Shown here: positions 483 to 64,000 of the stretch, piece by piece
Numbering within the stretch: the stretch's first letter is position 1
How the letters are laid out: each line of letters begins with the position of its first letter
DNA from: Methanothrix harundinacea 6Ac
GTDB taxonomy: Archaea > Halobacteriota > Methanosarcinia > Methanotrichales > Methanotrichaceae
Reading direction: 5' to 3'
NCBI RefSeq assembly: GCF_000235565.1
Contig: NC_017527.1
Span: 930,001-994,000, forward strand
Length of the DNA: 64,000 bases
Position numbers and translations under genes: made by a program
Notes under the pieces: generated by a model
What the model was told of the DNA's origin: nothing
What the model saw: only the letters and a program-made list of their open reading frames with translations
Database searches by the model: none

Positions 483-2715
<2,233 letters not shown>

Positions 2716-2774
2716 GCCCTGCTCCAGCCCCCAGATCACGCCAACAGGATCTACTTTTAACGATTTATACGGCC

Positions 2775-4166
2775 CTATGGGCCGGGACCGACCTCCGGGT
2801 CCGGCCCCTCCAGGACCGCGCCCGCCATGGCTGCCGATTCGTTCGCCTCGGGGAGGCCCTCCTGGAGATCCGGTCCGGTTTCGGGTCCGTCCGAGCTGTC
2901 GGGATTGATATCGGAATCGATATCGAAATCGGCCTTGGTGAGGTTTCCGGCCGAAGCCAGCCCCACCTCCAGCGCCCTCTCGTAGCATTCGATCGCCTCT
3001 TGGTGTCTCCCCAGGGCGCTGAGGGCGATCCCCTTGTTGTTCCATGCCTCCGAAAGCTCTGGGTCGAGCTCCAGAGCCCGATCGTAGGAGGAGATCGCCT
3101 CCTGGTACCGGCCGAGGGCGCTGAAGGCGACCCCCTGGTTGTACCACGCCTGGGAGTAGGCGGGGTCGATCTCGAGGGCCCGCTGGTAGGACTGGAGCGC
3201 CTCCTCCTGCCTTCCCAGGGATCCCAGGGCGATCCCCCGGTTGTTCCACGCCTGGGCGTAACCCGGATCGAGCTTCAAAGCCTCATCGTAGCTGGCCGCC
3301 GCCTGCTCTTGCCTTCCGAGGAGGCCGAGGGCGACCCCCCGGTTGTACCAGGCCGGGGGGTAGCTCGGATCGACCTTCAGGACGGCGTCGTAGCATTCGA
3401 CCGCCTCCTCCTGCCGTCCGAGAAGTCCGAGGGCGATCCCCTTGTTGTATAGGGCCATGACGTGGGAGGGCTCGATCTTCAGGGCCTCCTCGTAACAGTC
3501 GAGGGCCTCCTGGTGGCGTCCCAAAGTCCCGAGGGCGATCCCCTTGTTGTTCCAGGCGGTGGCGTAGAGGGGGTCGATCTTGAGGGCCTCATCGTAACCC
3601 TCGATGGACCTTTCGTACTCGCCCGCGGCGAAGAGGGACCTCCCCAGGTTGTTCCAGGCCTCCCGGCTCCGGGGGTCGATCTCGAGGGCCCTCTCATAGC
3701 ACTCGATGGAGCGGTTGTAATCTCCCCGGCTGTAGAAGACACCGCCCTGGTTGCTCCAGGCGAGGGCGTAGGCCGGATCGACCTCCAGGGCCCTATCGTA
3801 GGATTCGAGGGCCTCGTCTCCCCTCCCCAGGGCCTCCAAAACCACCCCCCGGTTGTTCCAGGCGGGGGCGTAGTCGGGGTCTATCTCCAGGGAGCGATTG
3901 TAGCAGGCCAGGGCCTCTTCGTTTCTTCCCAGGGCGCTGAGGGCGATCCCCTTGTTGTTCCAGGCGAGGGCGTACTCCGGGTCGAGCTCGAGGGCGTTGT
4001 CGTAGGAAGCGACGGCTTCCTCGTATCTTCCCAGCTCCGAGAGAGCGACGCCCTTGTTGTACCAGGCCAGAGGATATAGCGGATTCTCCTCCGCATACCC
4101 CTCCCCCACGGCAGGCACAATGCAGACCAAAAATAGCGCGAAGAGCGCGAAGAGGCGAAGCTTCAT
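2775..4166 (-). CDS. Secreted tetratricopeptide-repeat protein
   Basis: The 463-residue product starts with a signal peptide (MKLRLFALFALFLVCIVPAVG), then carries eleven consecutive 34-residue TPRs (about residues 30-405) with the consensus AWNNKGIALSALGR..EAL..YDRALEIDP. The last 55 residues are acidic and low in complexity. TPR arrays bind partner peptides, and the signal peptide places this one outside the membrane. The repeats are very uniform in DNA sequence, so unequal recombination could change the copy number. Methanothrix genomes carry many such secreted TPR proteins, but the ligand is unknown. It is convergent with the mer operon and followed at 4266 by coaD in the same direction. 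Confidence 0.9.
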   Translation of the reverse strand: MKLRLFALFALFLVCIVPAVGEGYAEENPLYPLAWYNKGVALSELGRYEEAVASYDNALELDPEYALAWNNKGIALSALGRNEEALACYNRSLEIDPDYAPAWNNRGVVLEALGRGDEALESYDRALEVDPAYALAWSNQGGVFYSRGDYNRSIECYERALEIDPRSREAWNNLGRSLFAAGEYERSIEGYDEALKIDPLYATAWNNKGIALGTLGRHQEALDCYEEALKIEPSHVMALYNKGIALGLLGRQEEAVECYDAVLKVDPSYPPAWYNRGVALGLLGRQEQAAASYDEALKLDPGYAQAWNNRGIALGSLGRQEEALQSYQRALEIDPAYSQAWYNQGVAFSALGRYQEAISSYDRALELDPELSEAWNNKGIALSALGRHQEAIECYERALEVGLASAGNLTKADFDIDSDINPDSSDGPETGPDLQEGLPEANESAAMAGAVLEGPDPEVGPGP

Positions 4167-53023: not shown

Positions 53024-54190
53024 ATGACCCTCGAAGATAAGCCCCTCGACCTCCTGGAGGAGTCGGACATCAGGGCCCTTTTAGACGACGAGGTCCCGGA
53101 GAGCAAGGTCATCGACTACAAGAGGCGGCTTCCCGGCCCCTCGGACCTGGAGAAGAGGGAGTTTATACGGGACGTCACCTCGTTTGCCAACGCCTCCGGG
53201 GGCCACCTCGTCTACGGGGTCGCCGAGGAGAACGGCGTCCCCGTGAGGATCCCGGGGCTCCCCGGGATCGACCCCGACGAGGCGATCCTCCGCCTCGACA
53301 GCATGGTCCAGACGGGGATCGCCCCCCGGATCCCCGGGATATCCATGAGGGCCGTCCCCCTGAAGGGGAAACGTTTCGTCATCGTCGTCCGGATCCCCAA
53401 GAGCTGGGCCTCCCCCCACATGATCACCAAGGGATCCTCCAAGTTCTACTCTCGAAACTCAGCTGGAAAGTATCCCCTCGACGTCTTCGAGATCAGGACC
53501 GCCTTCTCCCTCTCCGGGTCCGCCGCCGAGAGGATGAGGAGCTTCCGGGCCGAGGCCCTGGGAAGGGTCGTCGCGGGGGAGACTCCGGCGGCCGTCGGGC
53601 CGGGGCCGAAGATGGTCTTCTCCGTCATCCCTCTGGGGGCCTTCGAGCCTGCCGCCAGGTTCGACGTCTCCTCCATAGTACAGAGGTACAGGAGCGGGAA
53701 GGGGGCCCTCCCCCTCCCCCTGACGGGGCTCTTCTCCGGCTGGCGGTACAACTTCGACGGCCTCCTCACCTACGACGACCGGGGCTCCTACGTCCAGGTC
53801 TACGAGAGCGGGATCGTCGAGGCCGTCGACTCCGTCATCCTCGGAGGCGTCGGTAGGGAGATTCCGGGCGTCCGGTACGAGGAGGCGCTCCTGGAGGCCC
53901 TCCCCCGGTACGCCCGGTTCCTGGAATTCCTAGGCGTCGAGCCTCCCATCTTCACCACCCTCACCCTCCTGGGGGTGAAGGGGTGCACCCTCAGGGCCGA
54001 GGGCTCCGACGCCCTCGGGGAGGTCGAGATCGACCGGGACGCCCTCCTCGTCCCCGAGATCATGATCGAGGGCTTCGACTACGACGCCGAGGAGGTCCTG
54101 AGGCCCGCCTTCGACGCCGTCTGGCGGGCCGCTGGCTGGGAGCGGTCGATGAACTACGACTCGAAAGGCCACCGGATCGGGAGGAGATGA
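53024..54190 (+). CDS. AlbA_2 (Schlafen-type, divergent AAA) domain protein
   Basis: The 388-residue protein has an AlbA_2 domain in residues ~12-155: ESKVIDYKRRLP (ESxxxEFK-like), FIRDVTSFANASGGHLVYGV (the SFANTxGG motif) and FYSRNSAGKYPLD. The C-terminal 230 residues are unrecognised and contain GWRYNFDGLLTYDD and RSMNYDSKGHRIG. AlbA_2 proteins bind DNA/RNA or ATP; many are putative regulators, some act in defence. The 17-bp iterons just upstream fit autoregulation. There is no helix-turn-helix in the tail that I can see. Confidence 0.85.
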   Translation: MTLEDKPLDLLEESDIRALLDDEVPESKVIDYKRRLPGPSDLEKREFIRDVTSFANASGGHLVYGVAEENGVPVRIPGLPGIDPDEAILRLDSMVQTGIAPRIPGISMRAVPLKGKRFVIVVRIPKSWASPHMITKGSSKFYSRNSAGKYPLDVFEIRTAFSLSGSAAERMRSFRAEALGRVVAGETPAAVGPGPKMVFSVIPLGAFEPAARFDVSSIVQRYRSGKGALPLPLTGLFSGWRYNFDGLLTYDDRGSYVQVYESGIVEAVDSVILGGVGREIPGVRYEEALLEALPRYARFLEFLGVEPPIFTTLTLLGVKGCTLRAEGSDALGEVEIDRDALLVPEIMIEGFDYDAEEVLRPAFDAVWRAAGWERSMNYDSKGHRIGRR

Positions 54191-57269: not shown

Positions 57270-58262
57270 ATGCCACCATTCTTTGAAGAGGAGATGAAGA
57301 GGGTTGAGGAGTCGATAGAGGACTATCGGGAGGGCATACGGAGGAACGTTGCCATCATCTCGGACCCCTTCTATGGCGAGGCGGATCTCATGGCCCGGGC
57401 CGCCTCGATGGCGGGCTCCGAAGGCCTCAGGATCGACGGTCGGAGGCTCAGGCACGACTTCGGGATTCTGGAGAGGGCGCCCCAGAGGATCCTGGTGGTG
57501 GATGAGGCCCACCGGCTCAGCCTGCGGAGGATTGGGGGCTTTGATCTGATGAACCGCTTTTTGAGCTTCGTCACCTCGGAAGAGAGACTCTTCATCACCA
57601 CTTGGAACAGCTTCTCCTGGAGGTACCTCGAGGAGGTCCTGGGCCTCGGCCGGCATTTTCCCCGCCAGATCATCTTGCCCAGGCTGGATGCAGGCCAGAT
57701 CCGAGAGATGCTCCTCGCCGGCCGCAGAGAGGGCGAGCTTACCTTCGTCGAGGAAGAGGCACCGGGAGGGGATTCGAAGGTCTTGGACTGGCGCGTCTCC
57801 AGAAGGGCCGTGATGGGCCATAATATCGATCTCCCCTACCCCTCGGTGGACCCGGAAATGATCCGGTCGCGCCTAAAAAGGAACAGAAAAGAGAAGGAGT
57901 CCGCCGAAGATGCCTTCTTCGAGAGGCTCGCCCGGATCTCCGACGGCAACCCCGGCGTCGCGGAGCATCTCTGGAAGGAGGCCCTGGACTATCCAGAGGT
58001 GAGAAGCTCCCTGAGGGATCCTCCCACCATTGACCTTGACTTCGACGAGTCCTTCGTCCTGGGAGTCGTCCTCTCTTCGGGGTCTCTGGAGCTGGATGAG
58101 CTCTCCGAGGTGCTGGGCCCCGTGGACCTCTCCGCCGAGATGATGGCGGCCATTCTGGAGGAGAAGGGGCTCGTCTCCATCGATGGGGAGGCCGTCACCT
58201 TGAAGCCCGAGGCTCTGAAGATCGACATTGAGCATGAGAGAAGGCTCAGGCTGGTCTGGTGA
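57270..58262 (+). CDS. AAA ATPase-like protein lacking a P-loop
   Basis: The 330-residue product looks like an Orc/TniB-type AAA protein: NVAIISDPFYGEADLM near residue 26 sits where Walker A should be but lacks GK[ST]; RILVVDEAHRLSLR near 73 is a good Walker B; FITTWNSFSWRYL resembles sensor 1; and a winged-helix-like tail follows (SLELDELSEVLG, AILEEKGLVSI). ATP hydrolysis is therefore doubtful. It is fused by a 1-nt overlap (TGATG) to a downstream MscS gene. The start is ATG 57270 behind GGGAAGG. Confidence 0.8.
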   Translation: MPPFFEEEMKRVEESIEDYREGIRRNVAIISDPFYGEADLMARAASMAGSEGLRIDGRRLRHDFGILERAPQRILVVDEAHRLSLRRIGGFDLMNRFLSFVTSEERLFITTWNSFSWRYLEEVLGLGRHFPRQIILPRLDAGQIREMLLAGRREGELTFVEEEAPGGDSKVLDWRVSRRAVMGHNIDLPYPSVDPEMIRSRLKRNRKEKESAEDAFFERLARISDGNPGVAEHLWKEALDYPEVRSSLRDPPTIDLDFDESFVLGVVLSSGSLELDELSEVLGPVDLSAEMMAAILEEKGLVSIDGEAVTLKPEALKIDIEHERRLRLVW

Positions 58263-59176
58263 TGATGGGCGAGGAGATGGCGGCGGTGGCCCAGGAGTCG
58301 TCTTCGAACCTCTCGGCGTCTTCTCCCTCGGAGGGGGTCGGCGAGGCCTCCGAAGCGATCTCCTCGGCCCTCCAGGCCTTCGGGATCGACTCCTCCACCA
58401 TCGTGCACGTCATCCTCGTCCTGGTCCTCGCCTACGTGGCGACCCGGATCGTCGCCTTCCTCCTGACGCGGTTCAGTGAGAGGTTCCACTGGCTCCGCCT
58501 CGGGATCAAGATGGAGATCCCTCTCGCGAAGCTCGCTATCTACGGCTTCGCCGTATACCACATCCTTGGATCCGTCTTCCAGCTCTCAACAAACCAGCTC
58601 TTAGCCTTCTCGGGGCTCATCGGCGCCGCCGTGGGCTTCGGCCTGAAGGATCTCGTCGCCGAGGTCGTTGGCGGGATCGTCATCGTCCTGGACAAGCCCT
58701 ACCAGATCGGCGACAAGGTGAGGGTCGACGGCCACTACGGCGAGGTGACGGACATCGGCCTCCGGGCGACGAGGCTCGTCTCCCCCGACGACAGCCTGAT
58801 CGTCGTCTCAAATCAGCGGATGATCAGCCAGGCCCTCGCCAACGCCAACGCCGGGAGCCTGGAGATGCAGGTCGTCATCGACCTCTTCATCGACTCGAGC
58901 TCTGATGCCTCAAGGGCGATGAAGATCCTGAGGGATGCGGCCGTCACCTCCCGGTACGTCTACATCTCCAGCAAGCGGCCGGTGACGATCCTCCTCAAGG
59001 ACCGCCCCTTCTACAGGAGGGTGAGGGCCAGGGTCTACGTCAACGATCTCAGGTACGAGTTCAAGTTCGAGTCGGACGTGACGAAGCGGGCCTGGGACGC
59101 CTTCCTGGAGGCGGGGATTGAGCCCCCGAAGGCGATGGTGATGGACCCGGAGGGGGCCGCCTCCCCGGCGGCGTAG
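58262..59176 (+). CDS. MscS-family mechanosensitive channel, small form
   Basis: The 304-residue protein has a Ser/Glu-rich N-terminal tail, three membrane segments (about 48-68, 88-108 and 116-140), the pore helix FSGLIGAAVGFGLKDLVAEVVGGIVIV and the beta domain YQIGDKVRVDGHYGEVTDIGLR. It is a minimal MscS. It is tied to the P-loop-less ATPase upstream, an unusual partner. The start could be GTG 58259, ATG 58262 or ATG 58265. Confidence 0.92.
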   Translation: MMGEEMAAVAQESSSNLSASSPSEGVGEASEAISSALQAFGIDSSTIVHVILVLVLAYVATRIVAFLLTRFSERFHWLRLGIKMEIPLAKLAIYGFAVYHILGSVFQLSTNQLLAFSGLIGAAVGFGLKDLVAEVVGGIVIVLDKPYQIGDKVRVDGHYGEVTDIGLRATRLVSPDDSLIVVSNQRMISQALANANAGSLEMQVVIDLFIDSSSDASRAMKILRDAAVTSRYVYISSKRPVTILLKDRPFYRRVRARVYVNDLRYEFKFESDVTKRAWDAFLEAGIEPPKAMVMDPEGAASPAA

Positions 59177-60128: not shown

Positions 60129-61112
60129 TTATAGATAATTTTCTAAATGTTCTGGTTCCTCTTCTACCACTCGATTGAAGTCCAGTTGCCTAATTACTCT
60201 TGAAAAGATAACTCTAAATTTTATAGTTGTTTCTGTTAACCAGTCGAGATATTCATCCCAATTCTCCTTTTGTGCTAAGTTGGCATCTCGATATAATCCT
60301 ATTACTTTATCACGATTTTCAGGATGGGGGTCCCACAATAGTGTTTCACCTATTTCTTCCTCTATTTTTTGCCTTATCTCCATAAGCTGAGGAAGGACGA
60401 TATCCGCAATTCTGTTACTTATATATACTCTTACACCAATTTTATTATCATATGTATTGGCTACATTAGATAGATTTATACCGGATTTGCCAAGAGAGAC
60501 ATCATACCAATATTGCGGGCGCGGAGTTTGTACCGACGGAATTTCTTTGCACTTCATCAATCTGTCTCTAAATTTAGTCCAAAATTCAAGCTGCAATTTT
60601 TTTGCTTCAGTCAAATTATCAGAAACTTTAATTTGCCTGACAATGTCTATTGGTCTACTAACCACATTGAAACGAATCGCAGGTCTCGATTCATCTATTT
60701 GCCATAACTCTAATTTGACCCCATAAAATGAAAGCTCTTCTGAAGTATGATCGTTCAACCAATCAAGCGCCTTTTTATGTTCATCCGTAAAATCACTGGC
60801 TATCCATACAATTGCGGTTGCATCCAAAAAAGATGCGTATGTTATTGCTTTTCCAAGGTGATCATGATCAGTCTTTTCTAATTGATTTTCAATAATAACA
60901 TATTTGCCATTGCCTATATCTTTAGCTAAAATGTCGGCAGAATACGGACCAACTGATACTTCTGTATTTTCAAGTTCTAACTCCAACCCTAACGCTAAAC
61001 CCAATCTTGAGAGGTTGTCTTCCTCTGCCAACCAAGGAGTGAATTCAGTGGCCTCATTCGTCCATTTAAATCGGACATTTAACAGTTTCAATTCTCCTAG
61101 ATCCCGATCCAT
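60129..61112 (-). CDS. DUF4268 / PD-(D/E)XK nuclease-like protein
   Basis: The 327-residue protein has a restriction-endonuclease-like N-terminal half: SADILAKD then YVIIENQLEKTDHDHLGKAITYA, where D...E-x-Q and the later H/K residues match the catalytic core of this class. The C-terminal half (from about 175, KLQLEFWTKFRDRL) is the DUF4268 domain, with YWYDVSLGKSG and IGLYRDANLAQKENWDE. Such proteins are common near defence genes, but none is adjacent. The gene is much more AT-rich than its neighbours, suggesting transfer. A TATA (61157-61165, minus) and GAGGAAAC precede it. Confidence 0.85.
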   Translation of the reverse strand: MDRDLGELKLLNVRFKWTNEATEFTPWLAEEDNLSRLGLALGLELELENTEVSVGPYSADILAKDIGNGKYVIIENQLEKTDHDHLGKAITYASFLDATAIVWIASDFTDEHKKALDWLNDHTSEELSFYGVKLELWQIDESRPAIRFNVVSRPIDIVRQIKVSDNLTEAKKLQLEFWTKFRDRLMKCKEIPSVQTPRPQYWYDVSLGKSGINLSNVANTYDNKIGVRVYISNRIADIVLPQLMEIRQKIEEEIGETLLWDPHPENRDKVIGLYRDANLAQKENWDEYLDWLTETTIKFRVIFSRVIRQLDFNRVVEEEPEHLENYL

Positions 61113-62908: not shown

Positions 62909-64000
62909 TCACTTTTTCTCCATCTCCTCCACCGCCTTCTCGACGGCCCGGGAACCCTTCTTCCGCAGCTCCCCCGAGAGCTTGGCGTAGTACTTCATGG
63001 TGTCGGGGGTGACGGAGGGGCCGACCTCCTCCAGGGCGGCGAGGAAGTGGCTCTTTCTCACCTCGACGGCGTTCATATCCTCCCGGAGGGCGAGCCTCCC
63101 CGCCTTCCGGCAGATGGAGGCGATGTCGGCTCCCGTATACTGGTCAGTCCTCTCGACGAGCCGATCGAGGTCGACGTCCTCGGCGAGGGGCATCTTCCCG
63201 GTGTGGACGGCGAAGATCTTCCTCCTGGAGGCGGCGTCCGGCACCGGCACCATGATCAATTCGTCGAACCTGCCGGGCCTGATCAGGGCGGGGTCGATGA
63301 TGTCGGGGCGGTTGGTGGCGGCTATCACGACGACGCCCCGCAGCTCCTCCATCCCGTCGATCTCTGAGAGGAGCTGGTTTACTATCCTCTCGGTGACGTG
63401 GGGCTCGCCGGTCCCTCCGCCCCGGACGGGGGCGAGGGAGTCGAGCTCGTCGAGGAAGACGATGGCGGGGGCCACCTGCCTCGCCTTCCTGAAGATCTCG
63501 GCGATGTGCCGCTCGCTCTCGCCGTACCACTTCGAGAGGATCTCGCTCCCCTTCGTCGTCAGGAAGTTGGCGTTCGACTCGTTGGCCACGGCCTTCGCTA
63601 GAAGGGTCTTTCCCGTCCCCGGCGGGCCGTAGAGGAGGACCCCCTTCGGCGCCTCGATCCCGAGCCTCCTGAAGTTCTCGCCGTAGACCAGGGGCCACTC
63701 CACCGCCTCGACGAGGAGCTGCTTCACCCCTTCGAGGCCGCCGACGTCGGCCCAGGTGACGTTCGGCACCTCGATCAGGATCTCCCGCAGCGCGCTCGGA
63801 GAGACCTCGTGCATCGCCGCCTCCAGGTCCCCCCTCGTCACCACCAGCTCCTCCAGGATCTCCCGGGGTATGGTGGGCTCATCGAGGTCGATTCTGGGCA
63901 GGACCCGCCGGAGGGCGTTCATCGCCGCCTCCCGGGAGAAGGCGGCGATGTCAGCCCCGACGAAGCCGTAGGTGAGGGTGGCAAACTCCTCCAGGTCGAC
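62909..64000 (-). CDS. CDC48/VAT-type AAA ATPase, C-terminal part
   Basis: The frame runs off the right edge, so only the C-terminal 363 residues are seen. The end of the D1 module (FVGADIAAFSREAAMNALRRVLPRIDLDE in parts) is followed by a full D2 module with WADVGGLEGVKQ, Walker A GPPGTGKTLLAKAVA, Walker B IVFLDELDSLAP, ATNRPDIIDPALIRPGRFD and a C-terminal helical tail. CDC48/VAT unfolds proteins for the proteasome. Walker B reads FLDELDS rather than the usual FFDEIDA, a small divergence. Confidence 0.93.
   Translation of the reverse strand, partial: VDLEEFATLTYGFVGADIAAFSREAAMNALRRVLPRIDLDEPTIPREILEELVVTRGDLEAAMHEVSPSALREILIEVPNVTWADVGGLEGVKQLLVEAVEWPLVYGENFRRLGIEAPKGVLLYGPPGTGKTLLAKAVANESNANFLTTKGSEILSKWYGESERHIAEIFRKARQVAPAIVFLDELDSLAPVRGGGTGEPHVTERIVNQLLSEIDGMEELRGVVVIAATNRPDIIDPALIRPGRFDELIMVPVPDAASRRKIFAVHTGKMPLAEDVDLDRLVERTDQYTGADIASICRKAGRLALREDMNAVEVRKSHFLAALEEVGPSVTPDTMKYYAKLSGELRKKGSRAVEKAVEEMEKK

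Follow-up and report, generated by a model that had tools for sequence, protein, structure and literature searches.

A P-loop-NTPase-like protein paired with an MscS-like channel in archaea and its possible role as an accessory subunit

Introduction

What does a soluble, NTPase-like protein without a P-loop consensus do when its gene is coupled directly to that of an MscS-like channel? The question is raised by two adjacent genes in the stretch of DNA analysed here, which is 64,000 nucleotides long and is referred to below as the window. The parts of the MscS literature covered here attribute gating to tension and lipids and name no partner protein dedicated to these channels. The MscS passages of PMC11337218 concern another mscS, located beside kamA-ablB. 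Among the matches listed in the open literature, a body that leaves preprints and most subscription papers outside its scope, no description of the pair was found. A named relative of the first protein (the 'partner' in what follows) is annotated as 'hypothetical protein'.

Results

The partner gene and the channel gene follow each other on the forward strand (Table 1). A sequence-only reading of the locus had stated that the genes share one base at a TGATG. The TGATG is present and the tight coupling holds, but an overlap of precisely one base cannot be taken as certain, because CDS 2 has alternative starts (GTG at 58259 and ATG at 58265) and because in the nearest relative of the window (L017) the start closest to the partner stop is an ATG located 2 bases past it. 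The window junction is between -4 and +2 (overlaps negative). Elsewhere in the window, about 2 kb following the AlbA_2 gene (54.2-56.2 kb) hold no obvious gene in the ORF list.

Table 1. Positions in the window of the two genes, their motifs and predicted elements, and other genes
Feature	Residues	Position	Strand	Remark
CDS 1, P-loop-NTPase-like partner		57270..58262	+	330 aa, ATG start
Walker A position, SDPFYGEAD	31-39	57360..57386	+	lysine column = E (residue 37)
Walker B position, RILVVDEAHR	73-82	57486..57515	+	
IGGF family signature	88-91	57531..57542	+	G90 in 97/97, F91 in 96/97
TTWNSFSWRYL, sensor-1-like strand end and next helix	110-120	57597..57629	+	
SDGNPGVA, lid-like motif	224-231	57939..57962	+	G226 in 97/97, N227 in 94/97
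Predicted winged-helix-like C-terminal domain	258-311	58041..58202	+	structure model
TGATG stop/start junction		58260..58264	+	base 58262 common to stop and start
CDS 2, MscS-like channel of partner-linked group		58262..59176	+	304 aa
Predicted pore helix	110-138	58589..58675	+	low-confidence model
Schlafen AlbA_2 domain protein		53024-54190	+	55 bits
DUF4268 protein		60129-61112	-	106 bits
AAA+ protein		62909-63922	-	intact GPPGTGKT, in contrast to the degenerate partner; AAA 155 bits

The association of the two genes extends well beyond the window. Of 50 genomes searched, 13 contain the partner (14 copies), and each copy is followed by a same-strand mscS of the same kind. The channel profile gave 14 strong matches in the same 13 genomes (369-532 bits), with the next MscS at 102 bits. 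Within the class, the partner profile matches 72 of 237 genomes and the channel group (E 1e-40) 69, all of which are among the 72; the genomes with the partner only hold contig-end fragments (G067, G121) or, in a one-contig genome, a 60-residue relic (G142). For the phylum, which from its taxonomy we take to be Halobacteriota, an even draw of 392 genomes that overlaps the class set was searched, and each of the two profiles matches 68 genomes, 66 of them common to both. The leftovers are, on the partner side, the relic in G142 and a 24-bit match in G408 and, on the channel side, G260 and G387, which score 107 and 110 bits versus at least 304 bits for unbroken members.

Because the pair is absent from 326 of the 392 phylum genomes and also from two genomes of the genus (G009 and G011), it is dispensable at large. 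In G010, another genome of the genus, the complete pair is present twice (L020 and L023). A Salinirubellus plasmid (class Halobacteria) carries a partner copy that shares 74% identity with the one of genome family f25, annotated there as a 'hypothetical protein' followed, with a four-base overlap, by a 'mechanosensitive ion channel family protein'.

A total of 111 loci including the window were collected, 110 of them with the partner, and the junction is measurable in 103; in the other seven, the C-terminal end of the partner is missing (five loci) or the locus runs off the contig (two loci). The sequence-only reading had suggested checking how many homologues adjoin mscS, and the linkage is near-total: in addition to the coincidence of genomes, 100 of the 103 junctions fall between -4 and +3, with values of 0 (50 loci), -1 (21), +1 (12), -4 (11), +2 (5) and +3 (1). 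The start was taken as the one nearest to the partner stop, which favours short gaps, and by a rough reckoning a fraction of about 0.13 of random junctions would have a start in this range. The exceptions are L137 and L197, in which the partner gene is broken, and L185, in which an intervening element separates the genes. In this last locus (family f20), a TnpB-type element with hairpin-like ends, judged by eye, lies between the genes at about 1800-3000 and leaves a gap of 1.2 kb.

None of the frames in the retrieved loci fuses partner and channel. When frames of at least 100 aa were clustered in the search for a third gene, no cluster besides mscS was present in more than 47 loci; the 47-locus cluster is antisense to mscS, and further clusters consist of antisense frames or of neighbours shared at genus level in 8-12 loci. 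In up to 34 of the 111 loci, additional mscS genes of the ordinary kind are found at a distance of a few kb from the pair (one or two extra genes in L087, L085, L098, L174 and L175 and in as many as 29 other loci), an uncontrolled count that in L135, L195 and L029 consists partly of pieces of the partner channel itself.

The gene order is partner then channel in all 103 measured loci. This order, together with the exclusive pairing with the channel group, would also be expected if the partner were an assembly or insertion factor that folds or places the nascent channel and is made just beforehand through coupled translation. We consider such a factor distinctly improbable, as the other MscS channels of the same genomes, in which the partner is usually single, would seem to be independent of it, and the loss of catalytic residues described below is not what one would expect of an ATP-driven chaperone.

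Some loci are broken. The partner is disrupted and a long channel frame is open in L104, L134, L137, L138 and L197, with the channel start possibly affected too in L137 and L197. The channel is split and the partner whole in L029, and both genes are in pieces in L135 and L195. These loci could represent true decay or assembly error. Like the absence of the pair from most genomes, they speak against the accessory-subunit reading favoured below.

Identification of the second gene as an MscS channel is confirmed by matches to the Pfam families MS_channel_2nd (PF00924; 62.5 bits, cut-off 20.2) and MS_channel_3rd (PF21082; 22.9 bits, cut-off 21). The protein is hydrophobic over residues 36-72 and 123-143 and contains a GAAVGFGL motif, and a low-confidence model (pLDDT 37) places helices at residues 44-74, 76-105 and 110-138 ahead of the beta domain. 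The term 'channel group' is used here for the MscS proteins separated by profile score, not by tree, and the gap in score between the group and other MscS is about 200 bits or more. When the group is compared with 55 MscS frames from outside it in these archaea, 20 of 212 positions separate it, a group-specific position being one held by at least 85% of the channel group and at most 25% of the outside sequences. These positions are found in the first two helices (4 of 63), the pore helix (4 of 41), the beta domain (8 of 59) and the C-terminal domain (4 of 49, a comparison with just 15-19 outside sequences). One residue that marks the group is G127 of GFGLKDL, where 96% of the other MscS compared have alanine. 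Judged from the alignment, the group-specific positions, which include E161, positions in N196-M202, S230 and P249, are candidate contact or gating sites.

The first protein had been described as AAA-like. The window partner has no Pfam match above cut-off, the best being AAA_22 at 13.2 bits (cut-off 27), so 'AAA' can be used of it as a likeness only. AAA-type models match the 63 members of the partner profile weakly at best (AAA_22 E 0.0091, AAA E 0.015). The window copy has no match in NCBIfam, and single members have weak ones, the best with an ABC-F model (E 0.00019) and BrxF (E 0.00028). AAA+ membership is thus unsupported by Pfam, the 63-member profile matches and NCBIfam alike. A search of the 63-member profile against solved structures gave nothing convincing (best E 0.046), nor did profile comparison with the nSTAND3, ATPase_2 and AAA_22 proteins of these archaea (probability 0.8, 2.1 and 0.9%, respectively).

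A structure model built from three sequences is poor (pLDDT 46). Its helices and strands follow one another as in a P-loop NTPase, with the core first, then a helical lid and finally a winged helix, an order with which the weak nSTAND3 matches given below agree. The winged helix alone is fairly confident, the pLDDT block means of 59-85 for residues 261-310 being the best part of the poor model. No membrane-like stretch was found in the partner; the channel has such stretches. As modelled, the partner would be a remote P-loop-NTPase-like protein, which is its likely fold, with a predicted winged helix at the C-terminus.

A winged helix at residues 258-311 would suit DNA binding, and the partner gene is the upstream member of a two-gene unit. 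The protein could then regulate transcription of the operon that encodes it, as a relic of a STAND-like or Orc-like ATPase whose DNA-binding winged helix controls mscS. A relationship of this kind is hinted at by nSTAND3 (PF20720), which matches 9 of the 63 members weakly (best E 6e-6; the window copy has no match) and, in a scan of 119 class genomes, matches G169 and G182 with 27.9 and 29.5 bits, just above the cut-off of 27.2. Such a regulator is unlikely all the same: it would have no need of the matched protein amounts to which the junctions of -4 to +3 would point, and the gene is paired with one channel group, with no other neighbour recurring widely.

The weak nSTAND3 likeness would also be in keeping with a defence pair, in which a STAND-like sensor opens an MscS-type pore upon infection and kills the cell, as would the patchy distribution of the pair, present in 66 of 392 genomes. 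With PADLOC, however, four of five proteins have no match and the fifth, from L165, has a 17.6-bit match to a CARF model; no relative was confirmed in viral contigs or, with the window protein as query, in phage records. As loss of the NTP site would moreover disarm a STAND switch, a role in defence appears very improbable.

The state of the NTP site was compared across 97 full-length copies of the partner. The earlier observation that SDPFYGEAD stands where the GK[ST] of a P-loop should be is borne out in the window copy. The Walker B sequence that it had called clear is present as RILVVDEAHR, but its DE is an odd form, since residue 79 is E in 9 of the 97 copies and D[ND]C[HQ] is the most frequent form. 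The lysine column contains K (46 copies), R (32), E (9), Q (3), S (2) and D (2), with L, V and I occurring once each, which leaves 51 of the 97 copies without the P-loop lysine. Most homologues do not have the intact P-loop that would have made the window copy a merely damaged one: GK[ST] is found in 46 of 97 and the full GxxxxGK[ST] in 5. The first P-loop glycine is replaced by A or S in 85, and in none of the 97 copies does the lysine occur together with a glutamate immediately following the aspartate of Walker B.

Retention of the site differs between lineages. GK[ST] is retained in 41 of 63 class rows versus 5 of 34 further phylum rows. Genome family f7 has the lysine in 35 of its 37 rows, versus 0 of 14 rows of the window's family f1, which we take to be Methanotrichaceae. 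The partner tree, obtained from a short search with the P-loop columns excluded and several long branches flagged, requires a minimum of 8 transitions between K and not-K, with loss and gain indistinguishable. Within the genus, 6 of the 8 columns of the rebuilt loop are invariant, a value equalled by 46 of the 319 windows compared at an overall 39% of invariant columns; the loop is kept, though not exceptionally. A change from lysine to arginine, as in 32 of the 97 copies, need not abolish nucleotide binding. In STAND proteins the catalytic residue may sit away from the Walker B aspartate, and by analogy the missing glutamate after this aspartate would be compatible with a catalytic residue elsewhere in the partner.

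The near-invariant motifs and the low dN/dS show that the partner is under constraint. In addition to the residues listed in Table 1, W117 is present in 97, N113 in 96 and W112 in 95 of the 97 copies, all three belonging to the TTWNSFSWRYL segment, at the start of which the low-confidence model predicts a strand (residues 107-110). Four partner pairs of the genus have dN/dS values of 0.14-0.35; those of the channels, by two methods and with one channel estimate missing, are 0.11-0.33. Mean identity over 95 loci is lower in the partner (36%) than in the channel (52%). The distances of the two proteins over the same 95 loci correlate with r 0.86 (maximum of 1000 shuffles 0.12), a value that would be expected from shared descent alone as well.

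With the P-loop consensus gone from the window copy, the gene might be taken for a locally damaged AAA gene that lies beside mscS by chance. This explanation was ruled out and retains practically no probability: the lysine is missing from all 14 copies of the family, the dN/dS is low and the pair recurs across the phylum.

Discussion

Because the junction is tight and the pairing exclusive, a shared function of the two genes is nearly certain and a physical complex is likely. The residues of the NTP site are incomplete in all 97 copies and vary with lineage, yet the gene is constrained, so NTP hydrolysis is probably not the reason for its retention. Tight, exclusive pairing and probably dispensable hydrolysis therefore lead us to favour, at somewhat better than even confidence, one functional unit in which the partner is a cytoplasmic accessory subunit that sets the opening or the recovery of the channel. 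The sequence-only reading had suggested a regulatory or scaffold role, which is plausible given that most homologues lack an intact P-loop and are almost always linked to mscS; from this association we infer binding to the channel and an effect on its gating.

As an accessory subunit, the partner would act as follows. The upstream gene would give rise to a soluble protein, likely of P-loop NTPase fold with a core, a helical lid and a C-terminal winged helix, which would be translated adjacent to the short MscS-like channel, most likely at a fixed ratio. The partner would then dock onto the channel from the cytoplasm and determine the moment of channel opening or the way the channel recovers. 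The NTP site of the partner may be a leftover switch. Copies that bear the lysine may still bind nucleotide, and through it may report the energy state of the cell or the presence of a ligand, with hydrolysis unneeded. In the window's family, where the site appears to be rebuilt, the partner may work as a nucleotide-independent subunit. The details of the fold, the docking, the gating effect and the osmotic function of the pair are what we infer from the two sequences and their models.

The variation of the site may also have a history. Possibly an ancient NTP-driven switch, through which a nucleotide or ligand signal formerly acted on channel opening, became a nucleotide-independent gating subunit in several lineages, with the strict pairing kept across the phylum; we offer this scenario tentatively, at somewhat less than even confidence.

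If the partner is indeed an accessory subunit, an MscS-type valve could have its own regulatory subunit, and tuning of such a valve from inside the cell becomes testable. The phylum that holds this exclusive channel-partner group includes methanogens and haloarchaea. The copies of the partner form a natural series in which the NTP site is retained, altered or lost while the accompanying channel stays of one kind, which provides a ready comparison for the role of the nucleotide site. Methanosarcina, for which genetics is available, is presumably among the carriers of the pair (group g38).

Several known systems resemble parts of the pair. The window channel has both Pfam domains of the MscS family and, in the low-confidence model, the three long helices before the beta domain. 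It differs in belonging to a group that is distinct by profile score and has a fixed partner gene. The partner resembles STAND proteins in the D[ND] of its Walker B and in a G-N-P motif further along the sequence; it differs from the STAND/nSTAND3 proteins in being just 330 aa long, and the window copy has no nSTAND3 match. With the AAA+/ATPase_2/Orc1-Cdc6 proteins (AAA_22) the partner has in common the order of the first strand, the P-loop position and Walker B, followed by a sensor-1-like strand, a lid and a winged helix. Here the differences are that its matches are weak only and that the lysine and the adjacent glutamate occur together in none of the 97 copies. KtrA/TrkA RCK rings are soluble regulatory subunits of channels. 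Their folds differ from those of the pair on both sides and no common descent is claimed; the likeness is functional, in that a membrane channel would work together with a soluble partner of nucleotide-binding fold.
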